From an uncultured Verrucomicrobiota bacterium (GTDB lineage Bacteria; Verrucomicrobiota; Kiritimatiellia; CAIVKH01): 64,000 bases of DNA. Below, piece after piece: positions 3,084-64,000 of this stretch (within the stretch, counting starts at the first letter, position 1; every line of letters starts with the position of its first letter). The stretch spans positions 1-64,000 of the forward strand of contig CALMUP010000020.1 in assembly GCA_937872895.1 (NCBI GenBank). Reading direction: 5' to 3'. The position numbers and the translations under genes were made by a program. Under the pieces are notes generated by a model that was not told the DNA's origin, made no database searches, and worked only from the letters and a program-made list of their open reading frames with translations.

Positions 3084-4664
3084 GTGCCGAACGGTTACCT
3101 TTGCCTGGTTCTTCACGCCCACCTTCCCTTCATTCGCCACCCGGAGTTTCCGGAATTCATCGAGGAGCGCTGGCTCTACGAGGCGGTGCGGGAGTGTTAC
3201 CTGCCGTTGGTGCGCGTATTGCAGGCGCGGCGGGCGCATCCGGCGGCGAGCCGCCTGACCGTCTCGCTGTCGCCGACGCTGATCGCGATGCTCGACGATC
3301 CGATGTTGCGGTCGCGGGTGCGGCGTCACCTGGAGCGGGTGGTCCGGTTTGCCGAACGCGAGGTAAAGCGCACCGGGGCGGATCCGGCCTCGGCGTGGCA
3401 TCCCCTGGCGCGCTTTTATGCGGTGCTGGCCGAGCAGAACCTCGCGACGTGGGACGGGTTGGGCGAGGGCGGGATTGTCGATGCGCTGGTCGAGCTGGAG
3501 CAGCGCGGGCACCTCGAGCTGATCACCACCTGTGCGACGCATGCATTCCTGCCGATCTGGAAGCGGCATCCGGAGATCACGCGGCGGCAGATCATGCTCG
3601 GTGCGCGGATGTTCGAACGGCGGGTGGGACATCCGTCCGCCGGGTTCTGGCTGCCGGAGTGCGGCTATTATCCCGGGCTCGAGAAATTCCTCGAGGAGTG
3701 GGGCATCCGGTACTTCTTTCTCGAATCGCACGGCGTGTTGCATGCGCGGCCGAAGCCGCCCGACGGGGTGTTTGCGCCGGTGTACTGCCCGAACGGCGTG
3801 GCGGCGTTCGCGCGCGATCCGGCGTCGTCGCAGCAGGTGTGGAGTGCGCGGACCGGGTATCCCGGTGATCCCGAGTACCGCGAATACTACCGCGATGTCG
3901 GGACGGAGTTGCCGCTCGAGGCCTTGATCGATCTGTTCCCCGACGCGGACCTCACGCCGGCCACCGGGTTCAAGTACCACCGGATCACCGGATCGGGCGA
4001 GCAGAAGGCGCCGTACCATCCGGGGCGCGCGGCCGAGCGGGCGGCGGAACATGCGCGCGATTTCCTGGCGAAGAAGGCGGCGCAGGTCGCGCCGTCGTTG
4101 CACGCGATGGACCGGCCCCCGGTGGTGGTCGCGCCGTACGATGCCGAATTGTTCGGGCACTGGTGGTTCGAGGGTCCGTTGTTCATCGAGGCGTTGCTGC
4201 GGCAGGCCGATGTGCAGCGCGAGGTCGCGATGATCACGCCGTCGGATTACCTCGCGCTGCATCCGTCGGGGTTCGAGGGGGTGCCTTCGGCGTCGAGCTG
4301 GGGAGCGCGCGGGTACCACGAAGTGTGGCTCAACGATGCGACGGCGTGGATGTATCCGCATTTGTTGCGGGCGGCCGAGCGGTCGGCGCGGCTGGAGGCG
4401 TCGGCTTCGGACAAACTGCCGTTGGTCATGAAGCGCCGGTTGCTCGCCCAGGCGCGGCGCGAGTTGTTGCTCGGTCAGTCCTCCGACTGGCCGTTCATGA
4501 TGAACGCGAACCGGCACACCGAATACGCGGAGAAGCGGGTGCGCGACCACCTGACCCGGTTCTACTGGCTGGCCGACGCCCTTGAGCAGGGCGTGGTGCA
4601 GGAGGACAAGCTCCGGGCGATCGAGGCGGCGGACAATGTGTTCGACGCGGAGTTGCTCGGGTAG
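3084..4664 (+). CDS. 1,4-alpha-glucan branching enzyme, GH57/DUF1957 type
   Basis: The 526-residue enzyme is expected to form alpha-1,6 branches in glycogen or related glucan in the cytoplasm. The start is GTG 3084 with GGAGG at 3071-3075. GH57 motifs are visible: 'HAHLPFIRHP' near residue 10 (metal/substrate histidines), 'WLPECGYYPG' with the likely nucleophile Glu192, and 'PYDAELFGHWWFEGP' with the likely acid/base Asp353. The C-terminal third carries the DUF1957 helical region ('SSDWPFMMN...'). Length fits the family (about 520-560). It follows the DUF4912 gene by 3 nt, forming a two-gene glycogen unit. Specificity (branching rather than amylase or 4-alpha-glucanotransferase) rests on the DUF1957 C-terminus and the DUF4912 neighbour. 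Confidence 0.9.
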   Translation: MPNGYLCLVLHAHLPFIRHPEFPEFIEERWLYEAVRECYLPLVRVLQARRAHPAASRLTVSLSPTLIAMLDDPMLRSRVRRHLERVVRFAEREVKRTGADPASAWHPLARFYAVLAEQNLATWDGLGEGGIVDALVELEQRGHLELITTCATHAFLPIWKRHPEITRRQIMLGARMFERRVGHPSAGFWLPECGYYPGLEKFLEEWGIRYFFLESHGVLHARPKPPDGVFAPVYCPNGVAAFARDPASSQQVWSARTGYPGDPEYREYYRDVGTELPLEALIDLFPDADLTPATGFKYHRITGSGEQKAPYHPGRAAERAAEHARDFLAKKAAQVAPSLHAMDRPPVVVAPYDAELFGHWWFEGPLFIEALLRQADVQREVAMITPSDYLALHPSGFEGVPSASSWGARGYHEVWLNDATAWMYPHLLRAAERSARLEASASDKLPLVMKRRLLAQARRELLLGQSSDWPFMMNANRHTEYAEKRVRDHLTRFYWLADALEQGVVQEDKLRAIEAADNVFDAELLG

Positions 4665-4705
4665 GCGCGGACAACAGCGGCGACGTGGTGACGTGGCACG
4701 GAGGT

Positions 4706-4940
4706 TGTAACCACGGATGAACACGGATCAACACGGATGCGGCGTGTGGTGCGGTGCGTGGATGCGTGAATTGAAGCGGAAAACAGGCATGTTTTAACCG
4801 CGGATGGCGCGGATATCGCGGATGGGGAAGATGATTGGCGTGTCCAGGGTATCGGCTTCGATGGGATCTGCTGATTGAACCGAAGCGTGAGCAGGGTGAA
4901 GCCGTCCGTGTTTATCCGTGGTGCATTCCAAATCGGACGA
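4706..4940. repeat. Palindromic repeat module, unit 1
   Basis: The unit opens with a left arm of tandem 'CACGGAT' steps (4709-4738) and closes with its inverted form, ATCCGTG steps (4904-4922), so it can fold on itself. The interior contains a second set of steps, 'CGCGGATATCGCGGATGG', around 4810. A conserved spacer (CATTCCAAATCGGACGATGT) joins it to the next unit. Confidence 0.85.
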
Positions 4941-5210
4941 TGTAACCACGGATGGACACGGATCAATACGGATAGGGAATTTGGTGCGAGACGGTTCATG
5001 CATGGAGTTCGAGTTCTGGAAACAGAACCTCGGACGCAACATGGCGAAGCTACACCAAGCCTGACTGGACGGATGGTTGGGCGTAATGCTCGCGCCGGAT
5101 CGTACAGTCGGTTCTAACGGAATCAGACAAGCCGAAGTGCGTTACCTCTTTCCCCTTCGCGTTATCCGTGTTCATCCGTGTTTATCTGTGGTTCATTCCA
5201 AATCGGACGA
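4941..5210. repeat. Palindromic repeat module, unit 2 (different interior)
   Basis: It has the same inverted arms (4944-4973 and about 5161-5193) and the same closing spacer, but the interior (about 4975-5160) is unrelated to that of units 1, 3 and 4. The arms therefore behave as conserved ends around exchangeable sequence. Confidence 0.8.
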
Positions 5211-5455
5211 TGTAACCACGGATGGACACGGATCAACACGGATGCGGCGTGTGGTGCGGTGCGTGGATGCGTGAATTGAAGCGGAAAACAGGCATGTTTT
5301 AACCGCGGATGGCGCGGATATCGCGGATGGGGAAGATGATTGGCGTGTCCAGGGTATCGGCTTCGATGGGATCTGCTGATTGAACCGAAGCGTGAGCAGG
5401 GTGAAGCCGTCCGTGTTCATCCGTGTTTATCCGTGGTTCATTCCAAATCGGACGA
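5211..5455. repeat. Palindromic repeat module, unit 3
   Basis: This unit is nearly identical to unit 1 over its whole length, including the 'CGGCGTGTGGTGCGG' segment and the interior 'CGCGGATATCGCGGATGG' steps. It has complete inverted arms (5214-5243 and 5409-5438). It starts 505 bp after unit 1 and 245 bp before unit 4. Confidence 0.85.
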
Positions 5456-5640
5456 TGTAACCACGGATGGACACGGATCAACACGGATGCGGCGTGTGGT
5501 GCGGTGCGTGGATGCGTGAATTGAAGCGGAAAACAAGCATGGGTGAACCGCGGATGGCGCGGATATCGCGGATGGGGTAAGCGTTTGGCGTATCAAGGCC
5601 ATCGGCATTCGGCGGAATCTGCTGAATGAATCAGGGTGCG
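5456..5640. repeat. Palindromic repeat module, unit 4 (decayed)
   Basis: The left arm and first half match units 1 and 3 ('CGGCGTGTGGTGCGG', 'CGCGGATATCGCGGATGG'), then the sequence diverges from about 5580 and the right inverted arm is missing. It ends next to the 3' end of the GH31 gene. With units 1-3 it fills the whole 990-bp gap between the GH57 and GH31 genes; I see no gene there. Confidence 0.75.
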
Positions 5641-5654
5641 GCTTCGCGGTGAAT

Positions 5655-8216
5655 CTAATCTGCTGACAGGGTGCGGGCGAGCAGGTCGCGGGCTTTCTGG
5701 AGGATCGCGGCGGCGCCGTGGTCGTTGCGCAGGGTGTATTCGCGTTGGAATTCCTCGAGGGCCTTGGGCAGGCGGGCGAGGTCCCGGCGGAACGCGCGGA
5801 TTTCCTTGGCGGCCAGCTCGGGGCGGCGGGTCAGGCGGTTGCCGGTCTGGCCGACGCGGATGGCGAGGCGTTCCTCGGGGTGGACGGGGTGGGGGGGTGA
5901 CACGAGGTTGGCCAGCGCGCCGACCTTGCGGAGGCGGCGCATCAGGCCGGACCATCCGCGGTCGAAGCGCGGTGCGCCGGCGGGGAGTTCGATGACGATC
6001 GTGGTGGTGGTGGCGAGGTCCACGGTGCCGAGGGCGATCTCCACGAAACCGTCATCGCCGTTGAAGCGCCAGGCCGGGCGGGTGCGTCCGGAGGTCACTG
6101 CGGCCGGAGGCGGGCAGCCGTGCAGGCGCAGGGTCACCGGGCGTTTGCGCTTGAAGCCGCGGAAGGTTCCCTGGGCCGGGCCGATCACCACGGTGCGGCG
6201 GCGCGCGGTCGTGTGGTGGCGCAGCGGGATGGTCACGCTGGCGCCATCGAGGTAGTCCTTGCTGAGGCCATCGTCCTCGTAGAGGTCGTAGGATCCTTCG
6301 CCGCCGGGGTAGGCGGCGAGCACGAGGTGCGGGCACGAGCCGCCGGTCAGGCGGGTGGTGTCGGCTTGTTCGGGGATGATCGCGCCGGCCTTCACGAACA
6401 CCGGGATTTCCTCCAGCAGGGCGTGGCGGGTCACAATGCGGTTGCCGCGTTCGAGGGTGCCGAGGGTGGTGTCGTACCAGCGGCCGGGCGGAAGCCAGAT
6501 CGAGGTGGTGGCGGTTCCGGTGGATTCCTCGACGGGGGCGGTGATCGGGGCGGCGATCATGGCGTCGCCGAAATAGTATTGATGGCGGGCGGTGTAGGCC
6601 TCGGGGGCGCGCGGTGATTCGTAGTACATCGGGCGCAGCAGGGCGATGGCGGTGTCGGTGGCGCGGCGCATCTCGGTGTAGATGTACGGGGCGAGGCGGT
6701 AGCGGAGGCGGAGGGCCTCGGCCATCACGTCGCGGAACGGTTCGGGGTAGAGCCAGACGCGGCGTTCGGCCTCGCGGTTTTTCGAGGTGTGGGTGCGCAG
6801 GATCGGGGAGAACACGCCGAACTGGATCCAGCGGGTGTAGAGTTCGCCGGAGATCGGGCCGGGTTGGTGGCCGCCGATGTCGTGGCTCCAGGTTCCGTAG
6901 AGGATGTTCGAGGCGGTGGCGGTAAAGTGGGGTTGGTAGGCGAGCGACTCCCAGGTCGAGTGGGTGTCGCCGGAGAAGCCCACGGGGTAGCGGCCGGAGC
7001 CGGGGCCGCCGTAGCGGCTGAAGTTCAGCGGGCGGCGGGCGGGGCGGTTTTTTTCCTGGTCGGTCCAGTGCAGGTGGTTCAGCCAGGGCAGCGGATCGAG
7101 GCCTTCGATCGAGGTGGTGTGTCCCTGTTGCCAGTCCATCCACCAGAAATCCACGCCGCGTTTTTCCTCCGGGTGGTGAAGGTGTTTGAAATAGGCGGCG
7201 ATGAACGCGGGGTTGGTGCAGTCGAACGGGATGCGTTTGGTGGTGGCGGGTTCGAGGCCGAGGTCGCGGCACATCGCGGGGAAGGCGGCTTCGTGTTTGC
7301 CCACGCCGTCGGCGGGGTGGAGGTTCAGGGTGATCTTGATACCGCGGCGGCGGAGGTCGCGCAGCAGGGCGGTCGGATCGGGGAAGTAGTCGGGATCCCA
7401 CGTGTAGCCGGTCCAGCCCTGGAGGTGCCAGTCCATGTCGATGACCATCACATCGATCGGCAGTTTCATCCGGTCGAACTGGTCGATCATGTCCTCGATC
7501 TCGCGGTCGGTGTAGGCCCAATAGCGCGAGTACCAGTAGCCGAGGGTATAGCGCGGCGGCAGGGGCATGCGGCCGAAGACGCGGGCGGCTGCGGCGAGGG
7601 CCTGCTTGTAGTCGCGGCCATAACCGAAGAAAAAGAAGTCCTGGTGCTGTGCGGAGCGACGCGGGGTCGCCCACGGGGTAAAGGCGTCGGGGCGCGGGGT
7701 CAGGAGTACGCTGCGATCCTCGATCACCGCCCAGCCGTCGCGCGAGAGAACGCCGTGGCCGAGGTCGATGGGCACCTTGCGGTCGGGGGACCAGTGGCCC
7801 TGTTCGTTTTGCTTCCAAAGCCAGAGTTGGTCGCCGATTGCGCCGTCGAGGGTGCGGATGGTGCCGCCGAGGTTGCCGCGATCGGTCTGGCCATAGCGCC
7901 AGGTGGACCAGCCGCCGAGATGGCGGAAACGGATGGACAGGGTGTGGGCGGTGAAGCCGGCGGGGGTATCGCGGTAGGTCAGCACCAGGCGGTCGGTGCG
8001 AAGGGTCAGGGTGTTGCCGCGGCGCTGCACGCGGAGGTTGATCGGAGGGGGCTCGGGTCGCCGGGCGGTCAGGCTCGGGGCATCCGCAAAGGTGAGATCC
8101 GGTGCGAATTCCAGACGGACCAGGCCGGTGTCGAGGACGGTGAAGCGGGCGGAGCCCTGCACAATCGTAGAGGCTGTGCGCCTCCTTAACAGCCGGGATG
8201 CGGTACGTGATGTCAT
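5655..8216 (-). CDS. GH31 family alpha-glucosidase
   Basis: The enzyme (853 residues from ATG 8216) should hydrolyse terminal alpha-glucosidic bonds. Domain order is N-terminal beta domain (to about 230), catalytic barrel (about 245-600), then C-terminal beta domains and a helical tail. Catalytic residues are visible: nucleophile Asp361 in 'DFWWMDWQQG' and acid/base Asp417 in 'GFSGDTHSTWESL'; 'VIDMDWHLQGWTGYTWDPDYFPD' is the typical first substrate motif (shown in part of the barrel). No signal peptide is seen from this start. An upstream in-frame ATG at 8234 is possible, and the frame is open to 8375, but that extension overlaps the promoter-like element and looks non-coding. It is divergent from the PEP-CTERM gene. 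It could supply glucose from the same glucan as the GH57 enzyme. Confidence 0.9.
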   Translation of the reverse strand: MTSRTASRLLRRRTASTIVQGSARFTVLDTGLVRLEFAPDLTFADAPSLTARRPEPPPINLRVQRRGNTLTLRTDRLVLTYRDTPAGFTAHTLSIRFRHLGGWSTWRYGQTDRGNLGGTIRTLDGAIGDQLWLWKQNEQGHWSPDRKVPIDLGHGVLSRDGWAVIEDRSVLLTPRPDAFTPWATPRRSAQHQDFFFFGYGRDYKQALAAAARVFGRMPLPPRYTLGYWYSRYWAYTDREIEDMIDQFDRMKLPIDVMVIDMDWHLQGWTGYTWDPDYFPDPTALLRDLRRRGIKITLNLHPADGVGKHEAAFPAMCRDLGLEPATTKRIPFDCTNPAFIAAYFKHLHHPEEKRGVDFWWMDWQQGHTTSIEGLDPLPWLNHLHWTDQEKNRPARRPLNFSRYGGPGSGRYPVGFSGDTHSTWESLAYQPHFTATASNILYGTWSHDIGGHQPGPISGELYTRWIQFGVFSPILRTHTSKNREAERRVWLYPEPFRDVMAEALRLRYRLAPYIYTEMRRATDTAIALLRPMYYESPRAPEAYTARHQYYFGDAMIAAPITAPVEESTGTATTSIWLPPGRWYDTTLGTLERGNRIVTRHALLEEIPVFVKAGAIIPEQADTTRLTGGSCPHLVLAAYPGGEGSYDLYEDDGLSKDYLDGASVTIPLRHHTTARRRTVVIGPAQGTFRGFKRKRPVTLRLHGCPPPAAVTSGRTRPAWRFNGDDGFVEIALGTVDLATTTTIVIELPAGAPRFDRGWSGLMRRLRKVGALANLVSPPHPVHPEERLAIRVGQTGNRLTRRPELAAKEIRAFRRDLARLPKALEEFQREYTLRNDHGAAAILQKARDLLARTLSAD

Positions 8217-8225
8217 GGGTGGAGT

Positions 8226-8255
8226 ATTATCCATTCGTGTGTCAATGCCATGCAA
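8226..8255 (-). promoter_or_regulatory. Promoter-like element for the GH31 gene
   Basis: On the minus strand TTGCAT (8255-8250), an 18-bp spacer and GATAAT (8231-8226) form a sigma-70-like promoter. The -10 box ends only 9 nt before ATG 8216, so the transcript would be almost leaderless, in keeping with the absence of a ribosome site. If the start were ATG 8234 instead, this element could not be the promoter. Confidence 0.45.
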
Positions 8256-8418
8256 AAGGTTGTCAGTAAAGCGCAATACCGGTTTTCCATTTTTGAACAA
8301 GTTGTTTTCGAGGTTGAGACCGTCAACGCACAAATTAGCACAACAGGGCGTGCAAAATTGTACAAGTAGAGCCAATACCAGTAAAAAAGCAGCTCACGGA
8401 TATCTAAACATACGGTTA

Positions 8419-8448
8419 TTGCATGTTGGCATTGCCCTTGCTGATAAT
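8419..8448 (+). promoter_or_regulatory. Sigma-54-type -24/-12 element (overlapping a sigma-70-like promoter) of the PEP-CTERM gene
   Basis: TGGCAT-TGCCC-TTGCT at 8427-8442 matches the sigma-54 consensus (TGGCAC-N5-TTGCW) at all but one position. Transcription would start near 8453, 7 nt before ATG 8460. The same stretch can also be read as TTGCAT (8419-8424)-N18-GATAAT (8443-8448). Both readings give a very short leader and there is no good ribosome site. Known exosortase systems often link PEP-CTERM genes to RpoN and the PrsK/PrsR pair, which favours the first reading. Confidence 0.55.
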
Positions 8449-8459
8449 AAATCCAGGCG

Positions 8460-9125
8460 ATGAGACTACACACCACAACGTGGGGTAAGGGTTGGGGTCT
8501 GGCTGCGAAAGTTCTGCTGGCATGGGTTCTGGGGTTTGTGCTGGTGACTGGTAAAGCCGAGGCCCTGATTGTCGATTTGGATGCCTACGTCGACATGGCG
8601 ATCGTGCAGGAGGATCTGACCACGCCGTTGGCGGATGGGTCGTGGGTGTACATCGTAGGTTCGGGCGATAACATCAACGACGGGTTGATCACGTATGGCG
8701 GAACGAACCTGATTGCCGACTCCGTTCAGGGTGACGATGTCATCCTCGCCCGCATCCAGATCCCGTTGAATTCGATCACCAACTCCGGCACCTTTTTCGT
8801 CACCGTTCCTTACGAGTCGGACAACATCAACTACGTTTACATCCGTTACTTCAATACCAACAGCGACCCGGTTACCGGTATGGTCCGTTGGGGCACGTCG
8901 TCGATGTTCCAGTTGGGGGTGACGCTGGGTGTGGCCACGGTGCAGTTCGATCAGAACCAGCAGCTCGCGGCGACGAACTACAACAATTTCGTGGTGATTC
9001 CGGAACCCAGCTCGTTGAACCTGTTTGTCATGGTGGCGGGTTTGTTGTGGGCGATGCGATCGCGCATGCGGTTGGCCTCCGATCCGGGGGATGGTTCCGA
9101 TGACGGGTCTCCGGCGGGGGTGTAA
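8460..9125 (+). CDS. PEP-CTERM sorting domain protein (exosortase substrate)
   Basis: The 221-residue secreted protein has an N-terminal signal peptide (about 1-34, ending 'TGKAEA') and a beta-rich middle domain. The C-terminal sorting tail is Pro-Glu-Pro at 181-183 ('VIPEPSSL'), a hydrophobic segment 'LFVMVAGLLWAM' and an arginine cluster 'RSRMR'. Unusually, 16 more acidic/glycine residues follow the arginines. Such tails are recognised and cleaved by exosortase during export in EPS-producing Gram-negative bacteria; no exosortase lies in this window. The last 26 nt overlap the next gene, so the two are coupled. The function of the mature domain is unknown. Confidence 0.85.
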   Translation: MRLHTTTWGKGWGLAAKVLLAWVLGFVLVTGKAEALIVDLDAYVDMAIVQEDLTTPLADGSWVYIVGSGDNINDGLITYGGTNLIADSVQGDDVILARIQIPLNSITNSGTFFVTVPYESDNINYVYIRYFNTNSDPVTGMVRWGTSSMFQLGVTLGVATVQFDQNQQLAATNYNNFVVIPEPSSLNLFVMVAGLLWAMRSRMRLASDPGDGSDDGSPAGV

Positions 9126-20683: not shown

Positions 20684-21031
20684 GTGGGAAAGTACGAACT
20701 GGATGTGCAGGTAAAGTCGGAGGCAGGCGTTGATCTGGTCGAGCTCGACGGCCCGGTGGACTCTGCCACGATCGAGGTATTCAAGTCCCGCTTGGATCCG
20801 GTGTGCAACAGGCAGGGTGCCAAGGTCCTGCTCGACTGCCAGCAATTAACCTACCTGAACAGCCGGGCCATCGGCCTCCTGGTCAACTACCACCGGCACC
20901 TGTTGCAATCTCGCGGTCGCCTGGCCCTGTGCCGGCTCAATACGAAGTTGGTGCGTTCACTTGATTTGCTGCAGTTGGGTAAAACCCTGTTTACGTACGA
21001 AACCCGCGAGCTTGGCCTGGAGTCGTTCTAG
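20684..21031 (+). CDS. STAS domain anti-sigma factor antagonist
   Basis: The 115-residue single STAS domain starts at GTG 20684, 7 nt after AAGGAG; the in-frame TTG at 20678 is too close to that site. 'VLLDCQQLTYLNSRAIGLLVNYH' (in part) is the usual switch region, and Ser in 'LNSRAIGLL' is the likely phosphorylation site, matching the serine of SpoIIAA. The next gene encodes a PP2C/SpoIIE phosphatase 32 nt downstream, so this is probably its substrate in a partner-switching pathway. No kinase (SpoIIAB/RsbW type) is nearby. Confidence 0.9.
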   Translation: MGKYELDVQVKSEAGVDLVELDGPVDSATIEVFKSRLDPVCNRQGAKVLLDCQQLTYLNSRAIGLLVNYHRHLLQSRGRLALCRLNTKLVRSLDLLQLGKTLFTYETRELGLESF

Positions 21032-21063
21032 GTTCATTTGGTTGATTGACCGGACACGCTTGG

Positions 21064-23019
21064 ATGCCGACCGGACTGAAATTCATCCACAAGATCATCC
21101 TGCTGATGGTGGGATGTATCGCCTTCACCGGCGCGATCATCGCGGTGACCTTCGCCGCCCGTTTCCGGACGGAACTTATCCGTCAGGAGGAAGGATCCTC
21201 GTTTACCGTCTATCAGGCTGCGGCGAACTACCTCACGGGTCACTATTTCTCCAAGAATGAACATTTCGTGCCGCGCAGTCTTGGCTACGTCTTCAGCAAC
21301 CGGTTCCTGGTCGCCGAGGGCGAAGGTTCGCTCAGTGTGACGCACCGGCCATCCCGTGTCGCGCTGTACGAGCCGGATGGATCACTGATCTATGCCTACA
21401 GCATCGACGGCAAGCCCCATGCTCCGACGAATGTTCCGGCTTCCTCGCTGTCATCGAATGTCTCCGTTGTGTTCAATCGCCCGCTCGACCTGATCGTCGT
21501 CTCGGGTCCGATCGATCCGTTCGGCGCGGTGCCGGGCTATGTGACCATCGACCTCCCGACCGATATCGGCGAGCGGCTGCGTGCCCTCTACCGCACGGCT
21601 GCGGTGATGCTGCTCGGTGGCACCTTGCTGACCACCTTGCTCGGCTTCCTGCTCACCCGGCGGTTCCTCGCGCCGGTGCAGGCCCTGACCGACGCCGCCC
21701 GGCGGGTGCATGCCGGCGACTATTCGTTCCGCATCCAGCATGCGGCCAACGATGAAATCGGCCTGCTCACCTCGACCTTCAACGAAATGGTGTCGTCGTG
21801 GGTGCGCCGCCTCTCGCTGATGCACCGGATCCAGGAATGGACCCTGAAGGTCGGCAACGAGTTTGACCGTCATCGCCTCTATGCCCGGCTGCTCGACATG
21901 TTCCACAATGTGGCGTCTTCGAAGATGTGCGCGTTGTTCTTGCGGACCGACGGCGGGCGTGACATCGATCCGGTGGCGGTGCGGGGTGAGGAAATCCCGC
22001 CCGATGTGACCGGGCCGATCCGTTTTGCCCTCGAGAAAAACGAACCGGTCCTGATGGAACGTGCCGCCAGCGAGACCGGCGCCTCGCTGGGCCGGGTGAA
22101 GTCGATGGTGTTGCCGCTGGTCAGCGGGGAGCGGCCGATCGGTGCGGTGTACATCGGTCCCCCGGATGGCGCACCCGCCTACGATGATGAAATGGTGGCG
22201 ACCCTGCAGACCCTGGCCCAGCATGCGGGCATCGCGGTGGAGAACGCGCGCCTGCTCAACGAGGTCGCGGAAAAGCGGCGCATCGAGCAGGAAATGGGTT
22301 GGGCGCGCGACATCCAGCGCACGTTGTTGCCAAACCAGGCGGTGAACATCCCCGGGTACAGCCTGCACGGCTTCAGCCTGCCGGCGACCGAGGTCGGGGG
22401 CGACTACTTCGACTACCTCGCCCGCGATGCCGGACGGTTTCACATCATCGTGAGCGATGTCTCCGGCAAGGGTGTCGCCGCCGGATTGATCATGAGCGTG
22501 TTGCGCTCGCTGGTCCATACCTACAGTGAATTCACCGAGGCGCCGCAGGACATCCTGCGCCACGTCAACCGTGTGCTCACCCGCGACCTCGATGAATACA
22601 TGTTCATCACCGCGAACATGTTGACCCTGCAAGCCGATACCCACGTGCTGCGCATCGCGAGGGCCGGGCATGAGCCGGTGCTGATCATTGGTGCCGATGG
22701 ATCGATTCAATGGATCAAGCCGAACGGGACGGCGCTGGGCCTGCTCGATGTCGGGAGCTTTGAGGCGAATTTCGAGATCGCCGAATACCGCATGCAGCCG
22801 GGCGATACCGTGTTGCTCTATACGGATGGCATTACCGAGGCCCAGGATGTCGAGGGTGAGGAGTATGGACTCGATCAACTGGTGAAGGATGCCGCCACGT
22901 TGAGGCACCTGCCGGTTACGGCCATGCTGGAAGGATTGCTGGAGCGGGTCCGGCGATTTGCCAGCGACCGGATCCAGCTTGACGATATTACGCTGGTGGC
23001 GTTGCGCCGAGATCGATGA
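21064..23019 (+). CDS. Membrane PP2C (SpoIIE-type) phosphatase with HAMP and GAF domains
   Basis: The 651-residue sensor phosphatase has membrane segments at about 8-30 and 178-198 enclosing an extracytoplasmic sensing domain, then HAMP (about 199-250), GAF (about 270-405) and SpoIIE phosphatase (about 430-645). Metal-binding aspartates are in '[13 protein letters not shown]', '[18 protein letters not shown]' and '[12 protein letters not shown]'. It should dephosphorylate the adjacent STAS protein in response to an external or cytoplasmic signal. ATG 21064 is the best start; a TTG at 21046 is in frame. It converges on the DUF255 gene. Confidence 0.92.
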
Positions 23020-55888: not shown

Positions 55889-56659
55889 TCAGGGCGAGGT
55901 GCGTGCTACATCCGTCTTGCTGCCCGATTCGGGGGCTTGGCTGAGTTGGTCGATTTCCACCGGGTGAAGAATCCGGTCGTAGATGCGGACCTCGTCGATC
56001 TGCCCGATCCAGCCGCGCCCCGGTCGGGAACGCCCATCGCGCACCGCGCCAATCAGCAATCCATAACCGCCGTGGTTGGCCCCGGTCTCGCGTGACGCGC
56101 CCACCAGCCGCCCGTTGACATAGAGGCGGGTCGAAGGCGCGGCGTACTCATCGACGACCAACAGCACATGCCGCCATGCGCTCGGCGATCCTTCAAGTGG
56201 TGATGTAACCACCGGCTCACCGACGCAACAGTCCGTAAAGTTCCCGGCATGGCTGGTCAGCACCGGCTGTCCGCCCGAAAGTCCCGCCGCAACCTGGTAA
56301 CGACGGTTGTCACCAAGGATCGGGCGCGCTTCTTGAAAATTGGCCAGCGATTCCGAACGAACCCACAAGGATACCGAATACTGGTGCTTTTCCCAGGGCT
56401 CAATCACATAAGGATTCAGAACTTCGATCCAGTCATCCACGCCATCAAAGGCCATCGCCCCGCCAAACAGGCCCGCCCCTTGATGCGTGGCCCCCCGTAC
56501 CATCCCGTCATTCCCGCCCCCGCTTTCATCCTGGATCCGACCTGCCACCGGAGCCTTATCGAAACTGTAATATACCACCAACCCCTGGTCTGAACCCCAT
56601 GCCAAGCCTCCAGCACCCAGTAGCGCACCTGCCAGCCACCATGACGGAATAATCTTCAT
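55889..56659 (-). CDS. Secreted LamG (concanavalin-A-like) domain protein
   Basis: The 256-residue product has a signal peptide (about 1-22, 'GGLAWGS') and one LamG-type domain: 'LVVYYSFDKAPVAGRIQDES', 'GAMAFDGVDDWIEV', 'WRHVLLVVDEYAAPSTRLYV' and 'GWIGQIDEVRIYDRILHPVE', all typical of PF13385 (Laminin_G_3). It has no anchor; the C-terminal 25 residues are disordered. Such domains bind carbohydrate or protein at the surface. It is divergent from the giant repeat protein, and its promoter region carries a sigma-54-like element. Confidence 0.85.
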   Translation of the reverse strand: MKIIPSWWLAGALLGAGGLAWGSDQGLVVYYSFDKAPVAGRIQDESGGGNDGMVRGATHQGAGLFGGAMAFDGVDDWIEVLNPYVIEPWEKHQYSVSLWVRSESLANFQEARPILGDNRRYQVAAGLSGGQPVLTSHAGNFTDCCVGEPVVTSPLEGSPSAWRHVLLVVDEYAAPSTRLYVNGRLVGASRETGANHGGYGLLIGAVRDGRSRPGRGWIGQIDEVRIYDRILHPVEIDQLSQAPESGSKTDVARTSP

Positions 56660-56673
56660 TCAATAGCGTAAAA

Positions 56674-56689
56674 AGCACCCAGCGTGCCA
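56674..56689 (-). promoter_or_regulatory. Sigma-54-type -24/-12 element of the LamG gene
   Basis: On the minus strand TGGCAC-GCTGG-GTGCT spans 56689-56674, one mismatch from the -12 consensus and none from the -24 half. Transcription would start near 56663, 4 nt before ATG 56659, so the leader would be very short. The other TGGCAC-type element of this gap reads the other way. Confidence 0.45.
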
Positions 56690-56943
56690 GTTCACCTGAA
56701 ATCAGCCCGTCCGCGCTCATCCAGCATGGGAAACCGTGTAATCAGCATCAGTTTCGCGGGTTGACGAGCTCAAAACACCACAGAATAACCGGATTTCTCG
56801 CCGCGACCTTCTCGCTATTGCAAAAGTGAAATACCTTTTCTGGCCAGAGCGTGCCACTTAGGCGATGGCGAAACGATAAACCGGGGGTGTGTTCTTAAAA
56901 TGGTAGGCGATTTACCCCTGGAGAGGGTGGTCTTTGGGGGTTC

Positions 56944-56959
56944 TGGCATACGACCTGCT
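56944..56959 (+). promoter_or_regulatory. Sigma-54-type -24/-12 element of the giant repeat-protein gene
   Basis: TGGCAT-ACGAC-CTGCT at 56944-56959 has the -24/-12 spacing with single mismatches in each half. The start point would be near 56970, leaving a 116-nt leader. The remainder of the 426-bp gap (56660-57085) holds no gene I can support. Confidence 0.45.
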
Positions 56960-57085
56960 ATTCAAAATCGCCGTTACGCAAAACCGATAAATCGCGCCAG
57001 CAAGACAACATGGCGTTGGTTGGGGTGGTTGGGCGTACGTCGGTTCATGAATGAATAACGAAACGAATACACGCAGGGGGATGCT

Positions 57086-60000
57086 ATGAAGCGAATCGGG
57101 AGGTTGCCAGAGGGGACAGTGGGTCGGAGCGATACGTTCCGGCGTCATGTATCGTGCTTGGGCATGGTGGCGCTGTTTGGTGCGGCGATGATGGGTGGTG
57201 CGGGTCCCGCATCGGCTGCGGGGTTTGATCGTGCCGCCGATCCGGTTTATGCCGATGGAATCCTGGATGTTAACGGTGGCTCCGGTTTCGGGGCCTGGCA
57301 ATTGAATCCGGTGGAAAATTCGGAAGACCAGGGTGTCGTCCTGGGTGATTCCAATACCAATGGTGATGCCGGAGGCCCAGGCATCAATACCGATGATCTG
57401 GCTTTCGGCCTGTATGCCCGCAACGGCATGGTAACCGAGGCGATCCGTCCATTCGCTTCTCCGCTGGCCATCGGTCAAAGCTTTTCCATCTCGTTCGATA
57501 ATGGATGGGTTGAAGGCGATGACTCTGCCCAAGGCGTTGTTCTGGAAGATGTGGACGGCGTCGGCCGGGCCACCTTCGTGATCCGCGCCGGTTCCTCCAC
57601 CTACCTCATCGAGGACGGTGACGGGGTGCTCGATACCGGCATCGGCTTTACCGATGGCGGGCTGGACCTGACCTTCCTCATCACCTCGCAGGACACCTAC
57701 GATCTGACCGTCCATGCATTGGCCGAGGACTTCATCACGGTATTCGAAGGCCGTGTGCTCGGCGGCAACCCCGACGCCCCGATGGTGGCCGTCCGGGCGT
57801 TTAACGCGAACAATTTCGAGGAAGGCAGTCCCGGCCGCGACCTCTTCATCAACAACCTTGAACTCGGTTGCCCCGATGCCTCCGAATGCGGCATCACGAT
57901 CGCTGAAGGATCCGATTTTGTGACCCCCGGCTCGCAAAATGTCTTCGCCGGTCCGGAAAACGGCGAGGAATTCCGTTGGACCCTCGAAAGCAACAGCAGC
58001 GGCGCTTCGATTGTCGGACCCGATAACCAACAGGTTGTCGTCATCGACAACGGCGGCGAACCCGGCTTCTACGATCTCTCCCTGGAAGTGGTCGTGGATG
58101 GCTGCCCCCAGGCCTGTCTTGTTGGTGTGACCGTTGATTCGCTGCCCGCCCCCGAAGCCGGCAACAATAGCCCGATCTGTGAAGGCGAGGATCTGGTGCT
58201 GACCGCTTCCGAAATCGAAAATGCCACCTATACCTGGGTCGGTCCCAACCTCTTCCTCTCCACCGAACAGAACCCGGTCGTCGTTTCCGCCGAACTGGCC
58301 GCCGCCGGCGAGTACAGCGTGTCCGCCTCGGTGAACGGCTCCCCGTCGGCCATTGCCACAACCTTCGTGGACATCAATCCCGCTCCGGAGTGCCTGATCA
58401 GTGGCGAAGAGGTGATCTGCCCCGGAACCGAGCAGGTCGTGTACTACGCGCCCAACGATCTCGTCCTGTATGAGTGGACCCTCGAAGGTGACGCCACCTA
58501 TGAAAATGATCCCGTCGGCGGCGTGGTCCGCATCATTCCCGCCGAGTCCGGCACCTTCACCCTGACCTTGACCATCCAGGATAACAACGGCTGCGCCGTT
58601 ACCTGCACCCGTACCGTACACATCGGCGACAATGTACCGCCGGAAATCACCTGCCCCGATGAAGCAGCCGTCGCTCCCGGCGAGGATTACAGCCCTGACG
58701 CGCTGGGTTATGCCGTCGCCGTGGACTCCTGCGACGGCGATCCGGTCATCTCCTATTCGGATGAGGAAGTGCCCGGCTCGTGTGCCGGTTCCACCATGGT
58801 CATCCGCACCTGGCGCGCCGAGGACATGTATGGCAACGTCGCCACCTGCGAACAGGTCATCCACATCCAGGATGTCAATGGCCCGACCCTCGAAATCCCA
58901 CCCAGCGTAAACCTGACCTGCGGCGCCGACACCTCGCCGGAAGCCCTCGGTTTCGCTTCCGCCCTCGATGATGTCGATGGTGCCGTGGCGGTTACCTACC
59001 AAGACGAGGTGTATGTCCTCGATTGCGAAAATTTCGTCGTCATCGAACGGGTGTGGACCGCCGTCGATTCCTGCGGCAACGTCAGCGAGGATCTGCAGAC
59101 CATCACCATCGAAGATACCGAAGCCCCGGTCATGGTCGTCCCGGCCAGTGTCCAGCTCCCGTCCGATGCCGACACCTCCCCTGAAGCCATCGGCTTCGCC
59201 GTCGCCTCCGACAATTGCGACGGGGAGATCGACATCGCCTTCTTCGACGAGATCGTCGAGGGTGCCTGCGAACAGGAATACACCATCAACCGTTTCTGGT
59301 TTGCCACCGACCCCTGCGGCAATCAAGCCGAAGGCCTCCAGGTCATCCAAGTCGGGAACGGCCCCGTCACCATCACCGTCCCGGATGAGGCCGTTTTCCA
59401 ATGCACCGATGACCTCGCCCCCGAATCAATCGGCTTCGCCGAAGCCATCGACGGCCTCGGCCTGGCTGTCGAGCTGGCTTATGTGGATGAACTGATCCCG
59501 GGCGATTGCGGCGGACGCTTCATCGTCCTGCGCCACTGGCAGGCCGTTGACGCCTGCGGGAACCCGGTCGAGGCGACCCAGACGATCATCATCGACGACG
59601 CGGTCGCGCCGGTCATTACCCCACCCGCCGATGCCACCGTCGATTGCAACGCCGACATCAGCACCGAAGCCCTCGGTGTTGCCACCGTGGAGGATGCCTG
59701 CGACGAGGCCCCCGCGCTGAGCTATTCCGATACCATTACCCCGGGTGAGATCGCCGGCGTCTTCACCGTCGAGCGCGTATGGAGCGCCGTGGATGCCTGC
59801 GGCAACTTCAGCGAGGCCGTTCAGGTGATCACCGTCAGCGATGCCACCGCGCCGGAACTGGTTGTTCCCGCCGATGCCACCCTGGCCTGTGGCGATGACA
59901 CCAGCGTGGAAGCGCTCGGTTCAGCCTCCGCCACCGACGCCTGCGACGAAAGCCCGGTCGTGTCCTACAGCGATGCCGTGGTCCCTGGCGCCTGCGCCGC

Positions 60001-61465
60001 GAGCCTGACCATTGAACGCACCTGGACCGCCGTTGACGCCAACGGTAATGCCGCCGAAGCCGTGCAGACCATCACCGTCACCGATGAAACCGCGCCGGTC
60101 TTGACGCTTCCCGCCGATGCCAGCATCGCCTGCGGTGCCTCGTCCGATCCCTCCGCCACCGGAACCGCCACCGCCACCGACGGATGCGGCGGCGATGTGA
60201 TCATCACCTATTCCGATGATGCGACCGAATCGGGAATCCTCCGTACCTGGACCGCCACCGATGCCTGCGGCAACGCCGCCTCCGGCGTGCAGACCATCAC
60301 CGGTAGCGCCGACACCATCGCCCCGGTCCTGACCGTCCCGGCCGACGCCACCGTCGCCTGCGGCGCTGACACCAGCGTCGACGTGCTCGGTTCCGCCACC
60401 GCCTCGGATGGGTGCGACCTCGATCCGGCCGTGTCGTTCAGCGATGCCGTCATCGCCGGCCCCTGCGCCGGTTCCTACCTGATCGAACGCACCTGGACCG
60501 CCGAAGACGACAACGGCAACACCGCCAGCGCCGTGCAGGTCATCACCGTGCTCGACGAAACCGCCCCGGTCCTTACCGTACCGGCGGATGTCGTGCTCGG
60601 CTGCGGCGCCTCCACCGCCCCGGCCAACACCGGCTTCGCCACCGCGACCGATGCCTGCTCCGCGCCGGTCGCCGTGACCTATGCGGATGAGCACGTGGAC
60701 GGTTCGATCATCCGCACCTGGACCGCGACCGACGCCTGTGGCAACGCCAGTTCGGCAGAGCAAGTCATAGCAGCGAGCGGTGGTGGCGGTGGTGCACCGG
60801 TCATCCATGTGAATCCCATCGTGGCCACCAGCGCCTTCGTCGGCCAGCCGGTGAACTACCCCATGCCGACCGCGACCTCCGCGTGCGACTCGAATGTCAC
60901 CGTGGTCTGCTCGCCAGCTCCCGGCTCCATCAAAGGACCCGGTCTGTACCAGATCACCTGCACTGCCATCGACTCGGCGGGAAATACCTCCACCAAGAAG
61001 TTCACCCTCGTGGTGCTGGAGTCCCTCCGCGTGGTCGTTGATTCACCGCTGAAGGACGACAACAAGGCCGACAACATCGAGACGGACGCCGACAAGGAAA
61101 ACAGCTTCCAGGTCGGTTCCACCCTCCCGGTGAAAGTCCGCCTGCTCGACTCCAAGGATCGCGACATGACCCTCCTGTACGGCCTGACCGTCAGCGTGAA
61201 GCTCGACGTATCCCACCGCCAGCCCGCAGCGAATGGATCGGCCTTGATCGCCAACCTGCCGGTCTCCTTCAGCGGTGTCGGCTGGTCCAATGGTCAGATG
61301 GCCTACAAGTTGTGTGACTTCCAATACAACCTGAAGACCGCCGGTTATCCCAAAGGCACGGAGAAGAACAACACCTTCATCCGCGCCCGGATCTCCGTCG
61401 AGTCGCTGCTCTTCCCCGGCGTGACCATCGGTGAGGAAGATGTTCTCCTTGAGAGCAAAAAATAA
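57086..61465 (+). CDS. Giant secreted surface protein with nine tandem repeats and an HYR domain
   Basis: The 1459-residue product starts at ATG 57086 after GGGGGA and has a long signal peptide (about 1-44, ending 'AGPASA|AG'). Residues 45-260 are a beta domain, about 260-510 Ig/PKD-like domains ('YTWVGPNLFLS', 'YEWTLEGDATY'). From about 515 to 1230 there are nine repeats of about 75-81 residues. Each has a proline start ('APVLTVPADATVACG'), 'SATDACDESPVVSYSD' and a closing 'WTAVDACGNFSEAVQVITV'. A HYR-like domain (about 1235-1311) follows, then a unique C-terminal domain. No sorting tail or membrane anchor is seen. Repeats 5-9 are most alike, pointing to recent duplication. An adhesive or matrix role is likely. 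Confidence 0.9.
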   Translation: MKRIGRLPEGTVGRSDTFRRHVSCLGMVALFGAAMMGGAGPASAAGFDRAADPVYADGILDVNGGSGFGAWQLNPVENSEDQGVVLGDSNTNGDAGGPGINTDDLAFGLYARNGMVTEAIRPFASPLAIGQSFSISFDNGWVEGDDSAQGVVLEDVDGVGRATFVIRAGSSTYLIEDGDGVLDTGIGFTDGGLDLTFLITSQDTYDLTVHALAEDFITVFEGRVLGGNPDAPMVAVRAFNANNFEEGSPGRDLFINNLELGCPDASECGITIAEGSDFVTPGSQNVFAGPENGEEFRWTLESNSSGASIVGPDNQQVVVIDNGGEPGFYDLSLEVVVDGCPQACLVGVTVDSLPAPEAGNNSPICEGEDLVLTASEIENATYTWVGPNLFLSTEQNPVVVSAELAAAGEYSVSASVNGSPSAIATTFVDINPAPECLISGEEVICPGTEQVVYYAPNDLVLYEWTLEGDATYENDPVGGVVRIIPAESGTFTLTLTIQDNNGCAVTCTRTVHIGDNVPPEITCPDEAAVAPGEDYSPDALGYAVAVDSCDGDPVISYSDEEVPGSCAGSTMVIRTWRAEDMYGNVATCEQVIHIQDVNGPTLEIPPSVNLTCGADTSPEALGFASALDDVDGAVAVTYQDEVYVLDCENFVVIERVWTAVDSCGNVSEDLQTITIEDTEAPVMVVPASVQLPSDADTSPEAIGFAVASDNCDGEIDIAFFDEIVEGACEQEYTINRFWFATDPCGNQAEGLQVIQVGNGPVTITVPDEAVFQCTDDLAPESIGFAEAIDGLGLAVELAYVDELIPGDCGGRFIVLRHWQAVDACGNPVEATQTIIIDDAVAPVITPPADATVDCNADISTEALGVATVEDACDEAPALSYSDTITPGEIAGVFTVERVWSAVDACGNFSEAVQVITVSDATAPELVVPADATLACGDDTSVEALGSASATDACDESPVVSYSDAVVPGACAASLTIERTWTAVDANGNAAEAVQTITVTDETAPVLTLPADASIACGASSDPSATGTATATDGCGGDVIITYSDDATESGILRTWTATDACGNAASGVQTITGSADTIAPVLTVPADATVACGADTSVDVLGSATASDGCDLDPAVSFSDAVIAGPCAGSYLIERTWTAEDDNGNTASAVQVITVLDETAPVLTVPADVVLGCGASTAPANTGFATATDACSAPVAVTYADEHVDGSIIRTWTATDACGNASSAEQVIAASGGGGGAPVIHVNPIVATSAFVGQPVNYPMPTATSACDSNVTVVCSPAPGSIKGPGLYQITCTAIDSAGNTSTKKFTLVVLESLRVVVDSPLKDDNKADNIETDADKENSFQVGSTLPVKVRLLDSKDRDMTLLYGLTVSVKLDVSHRQPAANGSALIANLPVSFSGVGWSNGQMAYKLCDFQYNLKTAGYPKGTEKNNTFIRARISVESLLFPGVTIGEEDVLLESKK

Positions 61466-61517: not shown

Positions 61518-61548
61518 GGCCGCGGGTGGGACCACCCGCGGCCTTTTT
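61518..61548 (+). terminator. Rho-independent terminator of the giant repeat-protein gene
   Basis: A GC-rich stem of 11-12 bp (GGCCGCGGGTG with CACCCGCGGCC, 61518-61543) is followed directly by TTTTT (61544-61548). It separates the repeat-protein gene from the next promoter. The rest of the 356-bp gap (61466-61821) is AT-rich and holds a sigma-54-type element but no gene. Confidence 0.9.
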
Positions 61549-61781: not shown

Positions 61782-61797
61782 TGGCACGGCACCTGCT
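61782..61797 (+). promoter_or_regulatory. Sigma-54-type -24/-12 element of the calcium-repeat protein gene
   Basis: TGGCAC-GGCAC-CTGCT at 61782-61797 has a perfect -24 half and one mismatch in the -12 half. The predicted start (about 61808) falls immediately before AGGGGA (61809-61814), the ribosome site of the gene at 61822. A sigma-70-like TATAAC at 61759 is an alternative. Confidence 0.55.
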
Positions 61798-61821
61798 TTT
61801 TGAGAATTAGGGGAAATACTG

Positions 61822-62751
61822 ATGATGCAGCGATTGGACATGACAAACGTGAGAAGCGGTGGGGGTGCGCGCTGGCGCAGCCTGGCCGCCGTCCTCCTGT
61901 TTGTCCCGGGCTTGGTGTTGGCGTCATCCGCGGTTCCCGTCATCTCCCAGATGGTGACCGTTTCCAGTCCCGTGGTGGATGAATTCGGTCTGCGCCTGTT
62001 GGGCACCGATCCCGCTGCCGATTATTTTGGCCATGAGGTGGTGGAAGGGGATCTTGTGCAGATTTTCACCGCGACCGATGGCGTTGCCTACCCGCCCTCC
62101 ATCGAAGGGATGGCGGATCCCCGCAATACGCTCCTGCTGGAAACCCGCATCGGACGTGGTGCCTCGGTGGATCAGGCGAACCCCGGGATCTTTTCGGTGC
62201 ACCTCTCGCCGCGCCCTCCCGCCAACACCCGCCTGTTTGTCCGGATTTTCAATGCCCCGACGGTCGGTGAATCCTCCTACTATGCCGACTCGCAGGTGTT
62301 CACCGTCAGTTGGACGGTGGACTCGGTCTTTGTGGCCCAGATTACCTCGACGTCCAATCCCTTGGATGATGCGGATGATGACGGCGACTCCATCATCAAC
62401 TCCATGGAAAAGAGCATCGGCAGCGATCCGGGCCTGATCGATACCGATGGCGATGGCTTTACCGATGTCGAGGAAATGCTCGCCGGCACCAACCCGTCCG
62501 ATTCCGAATCGATGTTTGTCGTCGCCTCCGTGACCCCGGTCCCGCCGGAACACGTGCGCATTCGCTGGGCAACCGAAGCGGGACGCACCTATGCCATTGA
62601 ACGCCAGGATGGACTGATCGGGGAACATCCGGTTACCGTGGTCCGCACCCTCAAGGGCACCGGCGATGAAGCCGATGTCACCCTCGAAGTGACGGGCGAC
62701 GCGACCGCCTTCTACCGGGTGAAAGTATCGTTGAGTGAGGCATCCGAATAA
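61822..62751 (+). CDS. Secreted protein with calcium-binding (thrombospondin-3-like) repeats
   Basis: The 309-residue product has an N-terminal signal (about 1-36, ending 'LVLASS'), with ATG 61822 or 61825 as start after AGGGGA. Residues about 180-228 carry two Asp-rich calcium loops, 'DDADDDGDSIINSMEKSIGS' and 'DTDGDGFTDVEEMLAGTNPS', typical of thrombospondin type 3-like linkers in secreted bacterial proteins. The C-terminal 80 residues form a Fn3-like strand pattern ('HVRIRWATEAGRTYAIERQ'). It has no anchor. Its stop is 2 nt before the next start, so it is cotranscribed with the IgGFc-binding-like gene. Confidence 0.82.
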   Translation: MMQRLDMTNVRSGGGARWRSLAAVLLFVPGLVLASSAVPVISQMVTVSSPVVDEFGLRLLGTDPAADYFGHEVVEGDLVQIFTATDGVAYPPSIEGMADPRNTLLLETRIGRGASVDQANPGIFSVHLSPRPPANTRLFVRIFNAPTVGESSYYADSQVFTVSWTVDSVFVAQITSTSNPLDDADDDGDSIINSMEKSIGSDPGLIDTDGDGFTDVEEMLAGTNPSDSESMFVVASVTPVPPEHVRIRWATEAGRTYAIERQDGLIGEHPVTVVRTLKGTGDEADVTLEVTGDATAFYRVKVSLSEASE

Positions 62752-62753
62752 TC

Positions 62754-64000
62754 ATGGTTGAACACCCCGTCATCTCGTCGCGATCCCGAACCGGCACCCT
62801 GCGGCGTGCCCGCCTGCTTGTCGCCGCATGGGCCCTCGGCGGATGGGCCGCCGTCGCGCCCGCCCAGACCGTGGTGCAAACATTCTTCATGCCCTTCGAC
62901 GAGGCTGAAGTGAACGTCGCCCTGAATACCATCGACAACTTCGGCGGCGCGATCGGAAGCACCATCCGCAGCACCATCTCCATCGTCGGTGGTATCACCA
63001 ATACCGTGATCTACTGGGATCACTGGGAAGATGGCTACGAGGACAACATCCTCGCACCCACCCAGGCTACCACCCAGGTATGGGGTGACAACAACCCGGC
63101 CAACGGCATCCCACCCAGCTTCGGCGTTGACCGGGTCAACGAGGGTAGCATCATCTCCCTGATCAACGACATTCCCATCCCCCGCATCGCCACCAACATC
63201 TACTTCGATGCCCGTGACAAGATGTCGGTCACCCGCTGGGTCGCGGTATCCCGCTACCTGTATGCTCCGAATCCCGGCGAAGTGCTGGCCGATTCCGCCC
63301 AGGTGTATGACCGCAGTAAATACGGCTTCAACTTCCGCGCCCCGGTTGGCATCAATACCGGCACCAACCAGATGTTCGAGTACACCGCGATGCATGTCTC
63401 CGCCGGGTACAATTCAACCGTGGTACAGATCGATACCGACGCCGACGGAAACTTCGACGAGACCGTGTTCCTGAATGAAGGGGAAAACTATGTCACCCGC
63501 TTCACCTTCCAGGGCGCCCAGATTCAGGCGTCCAAGCCGGTACAGGCCCACCTGATCACCGGCGACATCGGCTCGAACTACGAAATGCGCTTTTTCGAGC
63601 TCTTTCCGAGCGGACAGTGGGACAACAATTACTACACCCCGGTGCACAGCATCGGAACCATCGCCACCGAAATCTACTTGTTCAATCCGAACCAGACCAA
63701 CATCGATGTCGTTTGTGCCACCCAATTCGCGACCAGCACGGTCAACATCGCCGCGAACAGCACGGCCATCTATCGGATGCCGACCAACCGGACCGGCGGC
63801 AACTTCTACAGCGTCGACGGCAGCCCGTTCGTCCCGGTATCGGCGACCGATGCCGGTCAACAGATCAGCGGCAACCAGGCTTACGACTGGGGCGCCGCCC
63901 TGGTGCCGGTACGCGCCCTGACCACCGTCAGCATCGTGCCGTGGGCGCCGGGCGCGGGCGGCAATCCGCTCTCCTCCAACAACGGCAACCCGATCTGGCT
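62754..64000 (+). CDS. Secreted IgGFc-binding-like surface protein (3' end beyond window)
   Basis: The open frame starts at ATG 62754, 2 nt after the upstream stop, and is still open at the window end (at least 415 residues). A signal peptide with a basic start is visible (about 1-40, ending 'AAVAPAQT'). The mature part has 'IYWDHWEDGYEDNI', 'NEGENYVTRFTFQGAQIQAS', 'KPVQAHLITGDIGSNYEMRF' and 'LFPSGQWDNNYYTPVHSIGT'. These resemble IgGFc-binding N-terminal domains of bacterial adhesins. Many such proteins in these phyla continue with DUF11 or similar repeats, which may lie outside. Not a short partial gene: no stop is near. Confidence 0.82.
   Translation, partial: MVEHPVISSRSRTGTLRRARLLVAAWALGGWAAVAPAQTVVQTFFMPFDEAEVNVALNTIDNFGGAIGSTIRSTISIVGGITNTVIYWDHWEDGYEDNILAPTQATTQVWGDNNPANGIPPSFGVDRVNEGSIISLINDIPIPRIATNIYFDARDKMSVTRWVAVSRYLYAPNPGEVLADSAQVYDRSKYGFNFRAPVGINTGTNQMFEYTAMHVSAGYNSTVVQIDTDADGNFDETVFLNEGENYVTRFTFQGAQIQASKPVQAHLITGDIGSNYEMRFFELFPSGQWDNNYYTPVHSIGTIATEIYLFNPNQTNIDVVCATQFATSTVNIAANSTAIYRMPTNRTGGNFYSVDGSPFVPVSATDAGQQISGNQAYDWGAALVPVRALTTVSIVPWAPGAGGNPLSSNNGNPIW

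Follow-up and report, generated by a model that had tools for sequence, protein, structure and literature searches.

The window that we analysed, a stretch of DNA of 64 kb, contains an intergenic gap of 426 bp (56660-57085) from which the genes of two surface proteins are read in opposite directions. On the minus strand, starting at 56659, lies the gene of a LamG (Laminin_G_3) protein of 256 amino acids with a signal peptide-like N terminus (55889..56659), and on the plus strand, starting at 57086, that of a giant secreted protein of 1459 amino acids, which carries five HYR_4C repeats and lacks a PEP-CTERM tail (57086..61465); gene calls and signal peptides were obtained with simple scripts, the latter by a crude rule. 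Within the gap we find two divergent sigma-54-type -24/-12 elements, 254 bp apart, here scored with a generic sigma-54 matrix, which reflects the consensus as generally known and was not fitted to the present sites. The element TGGCACGCTGGGTGCT (56674..56689, minus strand, score 14.3) lies 15 nt upstream of the ATG of the LamG gene, with a predicted transcription start near 56663, and TGGCATACGACCTGCT (56944..56959, plus strand, score 16.3) lies 127 nt upstream of the ATG of the giant HYR-repeat gene, with a predicted start near 56970; starts are placed about 11 nt beyond the -12 element.

Two further elements of this type are found on the plus strand of the window. The first, TGGCATTGCCCTTGCT (8427..8442, score 17.3, predicted start near 8453), lies 18 nt upstream of the gene (8460..9125, plus strand) for a 221-aa protein, whose C-terminal IPEPSSLNLFVMVAGLLWAMRSR reaches 19.1 bits as a PEP-CTERM signal, just below the cut-off of 20.7. 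The second, TGGCACGGCACCTGCT (61782..61797, score 16.4, predicted start near 61808), lies 25 nt upstream of the gene (61822..62751, plus strand) for a secreted 309-aa protein that carries a TSP3_bac repeat, and the gene starting at 62754 is probably on the same transcript. A strong terminator hairpin follows the giant gene (61518..61543, plus strand), so that transcription from the 61782 site would form a unit of its own. No PEP-CTERM tail is present in the giant, LamG or 309-aa protein. Each of the four elements is intergenic, lies upstream of a co-oriented gene, and has GG at -24 and GC at -12 at fixed spacing in the frame TGGCAY-N5-xTGCW; the 56674 element carries GTGC in place of TTGC.

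Within the window, TGGCAY occurs 48 times on both strands (25 on the plus strand), and only the four elements complete the pattern TGGCAY-N6-TGC. The form TGGCAY-N6-TGCT is observed four times against an expectation of 0.16 per window, a count of at least four being reached in 0 of 100 shuffles; when the final T is dropped, four matches stand against 1.51 expected, and 3 of 100 shuffles reach at least four. A looser search, TGGCAYN5TTGC with one mismatch, gives an unremarkable 10 matches where 9.2 are expected, so the significance comes from the exact core together with position: a site in the window has a 4.5% chance of lying upstream of a co-oriented gene, which puts four of four by chance at about 4e-6. 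The preliminary description of this DNA, which had reported two opposite elements in the 426-bp gap, four near-consensus sites before secreted-protein genes, no TGC at the right distance from any other plus-strand TGGCAC or TGGCAT, and an expectation below one per window, is thus borne out.

Since the pattern was picked from the window itself, independent tests elsewhere weigh more. Exact-pattern searches covered the whole genome (3.87 Mb, 95% complete), in which TGGCAYN6TGCT occurs 20 times: 13 upstream of a co-oriented gene, 6 within genes and 1 elsewhere. The genome-wide baseline for the upstream, co-oriented position is 3.75%, against which 9 of the 16 sites outside the window lie upstream (p about 1e-9); sites of the TGCA variant in the genome are not biased in this way. 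The total of TGGCAYN6TGCW (32) is in no excess over the reversed-pattern control (39), and only position and the TGCT subset split signal from noise. The matrix was applied to 834 kb, about a fifth of the genome, in stretches partly chosen around exact matches, and all 10 places scoring at least 16 in them were upstream and co-oriented; the reversed matrix gave two matches at this score, neither of them upstream. In the band from 14 to 16, to which the 56674 site belongs, 9 of 13 matches lie within genes.

The genes that follow the other exact sites are informative as to function. They encode a type III glutamine synthetase (GSIII), AmtB, a UrtA-type (urea-type periplasmic) binding protein, a circularly permuted ATP-grasp protein, Hsp20, RpoN, an activator and a FadL-type porin; type III glutamine synthetase, amtB, urtA and Hsp20 we take to be textbook sigma-54 targets. 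Signal-peptide genes show no enrichment of sites, whether the window is included or excluded: outside it, and by the crude signal-peptide rule, a site scoring at least 14 precedes 3 of the 177 secreted genes and 8 of the remaining 381 (p = 0.73). Such a site is found at only 2 of 12 PEP-CTERM genes, one scoring 14.7 at the gene downstream of C9:326442. The wider regulon looks like one of nitrogen assimilation, chaperones, FadL-type porins and regulators; with no enrichment at secreted or PEP-CTERM genes, nitrogen assimilation and chaperones seem to form its core and the surface genes its lineage-variable part. The expectation that the sites would avoid random positions in the genome has thus held, while their proposed clustering at signal-peptide or PEP-CTERM genes finds no support outside the window.

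The same picture is seen among relatives. Seven other members of the family together hold 35 exact TGGCAYN5TTGCT sites, 23 of them upstream, with glnN, amtB, the ATP-grasp gene, a winged-helix regulator, FadL, Hsp20, DnaK and ClpB as recurring targets and a few secreted proteins besides; in 56 genomes from the class, 242 pattern sites compare with 129 reversed controls (p = 2e-9). The giant protein has an ortholog of 52% identity in a genome of the same genus (G001), with TGGCATACCTCCTGCT placed 35 nt before its ATG; the neighbouring genes differ from those of the window, and the 260 bp upstream of the giant gene share no alignable stretch beyond chance length with those of the ortholog. For the 309-aa protein, sites precede the best homologs in G001 (47% identity, score 16.3), G004 (45%, 12.6) and G015 (40%, 15.4), and none was found at the best G002 homolog, at further paralogs or at most of the distant homologs. 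Sites before the 221-aa family are patchy, occurring in G046 and G023 and missing in the nearest relatives and at most of the distant homologs. The LamG protein has no ortholog, a search of contigs having returned distant relatives only, which leaves sequence and position as the evidence for the 56674 site. The conservation that had been anticipated for all four sites accordingly holds for 56944 and 61782, is patchy for 8427 and finds no ortholog to bear on it for 56674. As a separate observation, homologs of the 221-aa and 309-aa proteins, 53 kb apart in the window, adjoin each other in G002, G004, G005, G006, G007, G017, G021, G023, G035 and G046.

Besides one full-length copy of rpoN, the genome encodes five true enhancer-binding proteins; this count leaves out a few weaker PF00158 matches, which we take to be other AAA+ proteins. 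One of the five is of the NifA family, above the curated cut-off, and its gene adjoins an ammonium transporter gene. A near-consensus sigma-54 site (G000:C32:33769-33784) ends 9 nt before the conserved start codon of rpoN itself, so that a transcript from there would miss the ATG; the site may serve negative autoregulation, and it is missing at most rpoN orthologs. A response-regulator activator (G000:C8:62303-63664) likewise has its own sigma-54 site, with a degenerate pilin-like gene as its neighbour. In several class members its orthologs (L301-L324) are followed by a sigma-54 site and a prepilin gene (GFTLVEIMIVVAIIGLLAAIAIPS), which suggests a PilR-like pilin regulator. In G001 (contig C81) the activator ortholog (20690-22048) and the giant-protein ortholog (4010-8341) are separated by about 12 kb. 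An apparent site at the start of the activator orthologs (ATGGCACGAATTTTGCT) was rejected as a coding coincidence of M-A-R-I-L-L: in L309:1501-1517, L308:1502 and L310:1502 the first codons, ATGGCACGAATTTTGCTC (Met-Ala-Arg-Ile-Leu-Leu), mimic a perfect sigma-54 promoter, and are a trap for motif scans.

No inverted repeat or palindrome that could mark an activator site was found to be common to the upstream regions beyond the level of shuffles. Among k-mers in 13 surface-gene upstream regions only GTTTATC rose above that level, 6 of the 13 containing it where shuffled sequences reached at most 5. Between the divergent elements lies a candidate activator half-site, GATAAACCGG (56875..56884, minus strand, on which it reads CCGGTTTATC), and CCGGTTTATC recurs in front of two further genes, the homolog in G004 of the 309-aa gene and the C8 activator gene, in the latter case inside the perfect palindrome ACCGGTTTATCAACCGGT. 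Neither ACCGGTTTATCAACCGGT nor CCGGTTTATC is present at the G001 activator ortholog, versions of ACCGGTTTATCAACCGGT with 3-4 mismatches are common within genes, and by our estimate a 10-mer common to three of 40 such upstream regions is at about chance frequency. Because many words were examined, CCGGTTTATC as a putative half-site, like GTTTATC, is a lead and not a result.

At the -24 (GG) and -12 (GC) elements, sigma-54 holoenzyme forms a closed complex that cannot begin transcription by itself: an enhancer-binding protein, once activated, has to remodel it with ATP from a position upstream. We consider it very likely that the elements described here are promoters read by RNA polymerase with sigma-54 (RpoN). 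This reading is well supported: the sequences of the elements, their upstream positions here, in the genome and in relatives, the rpoN and activator genes and the conservation at orthologs are directly established, and the known targets agree with it. The sigma-54-like nature first ascribed to the elements is upheld by rpoN, the five activators, the 10 of 10 upstream positions at scores of at least 16 and those targets. Our confidence is very high for the 56944 and 61782 sites, and the 56674 site is a probable promoter on its sequence and position. We infer that sigma-54 would bind at the elements, that transcription would start from them and that one activator may act on both members of the divergent pair. 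The holoenzyme would then sit at -24/-12 as a closed complex, with no start before an activated enhancer-binding protein, acting from upstream, remodels it with ATP. The 426-bp gap would hold two promoters pointing apart, one towards LamG and the other towards the giant HYR-repeat protein, and as they stand back to back, one signal could switch on both genes.

One could object that chance produced the matches and their placement in gaps, given that loose matches are no commoner than in shuffled sequence, that the whole-genome count stays within its reversed control and that 9 of 13 matches in the 14-16 score band lie within genes. Chance would, however, also have to account for upstream placement in all four cases within the window, 9 of 16 in the rest of the genome and 23 of 35 in relatives, and for giant and 309-aa orthologs that keep their sites without flanking similarity; we regard it as quite unlikely, and for 56944, 61782 and 8427 it is already disfavoured. 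A different role for the bound factor, that of a repressor or road-block at least where the site nearly touches the start codon (56674, 8427, rpoN), would fit predicted leaders of only 4 nt at 56674 and 7 nt at 8427 and a predicted rpoN start at or just past the conserved ATG. It is very unlikely as an account of the elements, as the leaders at 61782 (14 nt, with an AGGGG ribosome site) and 56944 (about 116 nt) are ordinary and no sigma-70-like or other promoter-like sequence was found in the two intergenic regions scanned, near 56944 and 61782.

It is also conceivable that the window holds the proteobacterial PEP-CTERM circuit, in which PrsK/PrsR drive sigma-54 promoters of PEP-CTERM genes. 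The general logic of the present case is that of Haft 2006 (PMC1569441), the target at 8460-9125 is of PEP-CTERM type, and a second PEP-CTERM gene, downstream of C9:326442, has its site of 14.7. The five activators, on the other hand, score 387, 428, 383, 355 and 170 bits against PrsR (TIGR02915), even the best (428) being below the cut-off of 502.6, and the circuit is therefore not demonstrated here. Ten of 12 PEP-CTERM genes are without a site scoring at least 14, and three of the four targets in the window (giant, LamG, 309-aa) end without a PEP-CTERM tail. The accompanying motif 1, a 17-base logo ending in TTTACA and located 32-92 nt upstream of the sigma-54 site, was reported only in Proteobacteria (PMC1569441); its 6-base end, the only part of the logo used in this test, occurs in 0 of 13 surface-gene upstream regions. 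We hold this circuit to be extremely unlikely. One could instead speculate that a non-proteobacterial lineage independently put surface repeat-protein genes under sigma-54 with an activator of its own, possibly the conserved response regulator at C8:62303-63664, and with an CCGGTTTATC-type enhancer common to both divergent promoters and the activator gene; in this full form the proposal is doubtful, with a small chance of being correct.

Read as sigma-54 promoters, the sites give a testable regulon for a little-studied lineage, in which control of nitrogen and stress is tied to a few surface proteins, and they suggest that PEP-CTERM-type and other surface genes need not depend on proteobacterial PrsK/PrsR for their control by sigma-54. 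They also call for caution, as the clustering of a motif in one window may fail genome-wide.

Among known systems, general sigma-54 -24/-12 promoters share with the present case the GG/GC core spacing, the upstream position, rpoN with activators, and nitrogen and chaperone targets; the present case differs in having giant HYR, LamG and TSP3 surface proteins among its targets. In Proteobacteria, sigma-54 sites and a second motif precede PEP-CTERM genes, together with PrsK and PrsR (Haft 2006, PMC1569441), and one PEP-CTERM gene, pepA of Aquincola, is RpoN-dependent (Xia 2023, PMC9850573). The likeness to these systems is a sigma-54 promoter before a PEP-CTERM-type surface gene, whereas here no PrsR reaches the cut-off, TTTACA is lacking, most PEP-CTERM genes have no site and most targets have no PEP-CTERM tail. 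Sigma-54 has been argued to control the bacterial exterior (Francke 2011, PMC3162934), and surface functions under sigma-54 are common to both cases, although the emphasis there is on polysaccharides, flagella, lipids and wall precursors, and here we find single secreted repeat proteins. In the sigma-54 regulon of Chlamydia trachomatis (PMC7482065) the factor is likewise tied to membrane reorganisation and exported proteins, but under the activator CtcC and in an obligate intracellular parasite. The present case works like the PEP-CTERM and exterior systems, but its membership does not go beyond that of sigma-54 promoters in general.
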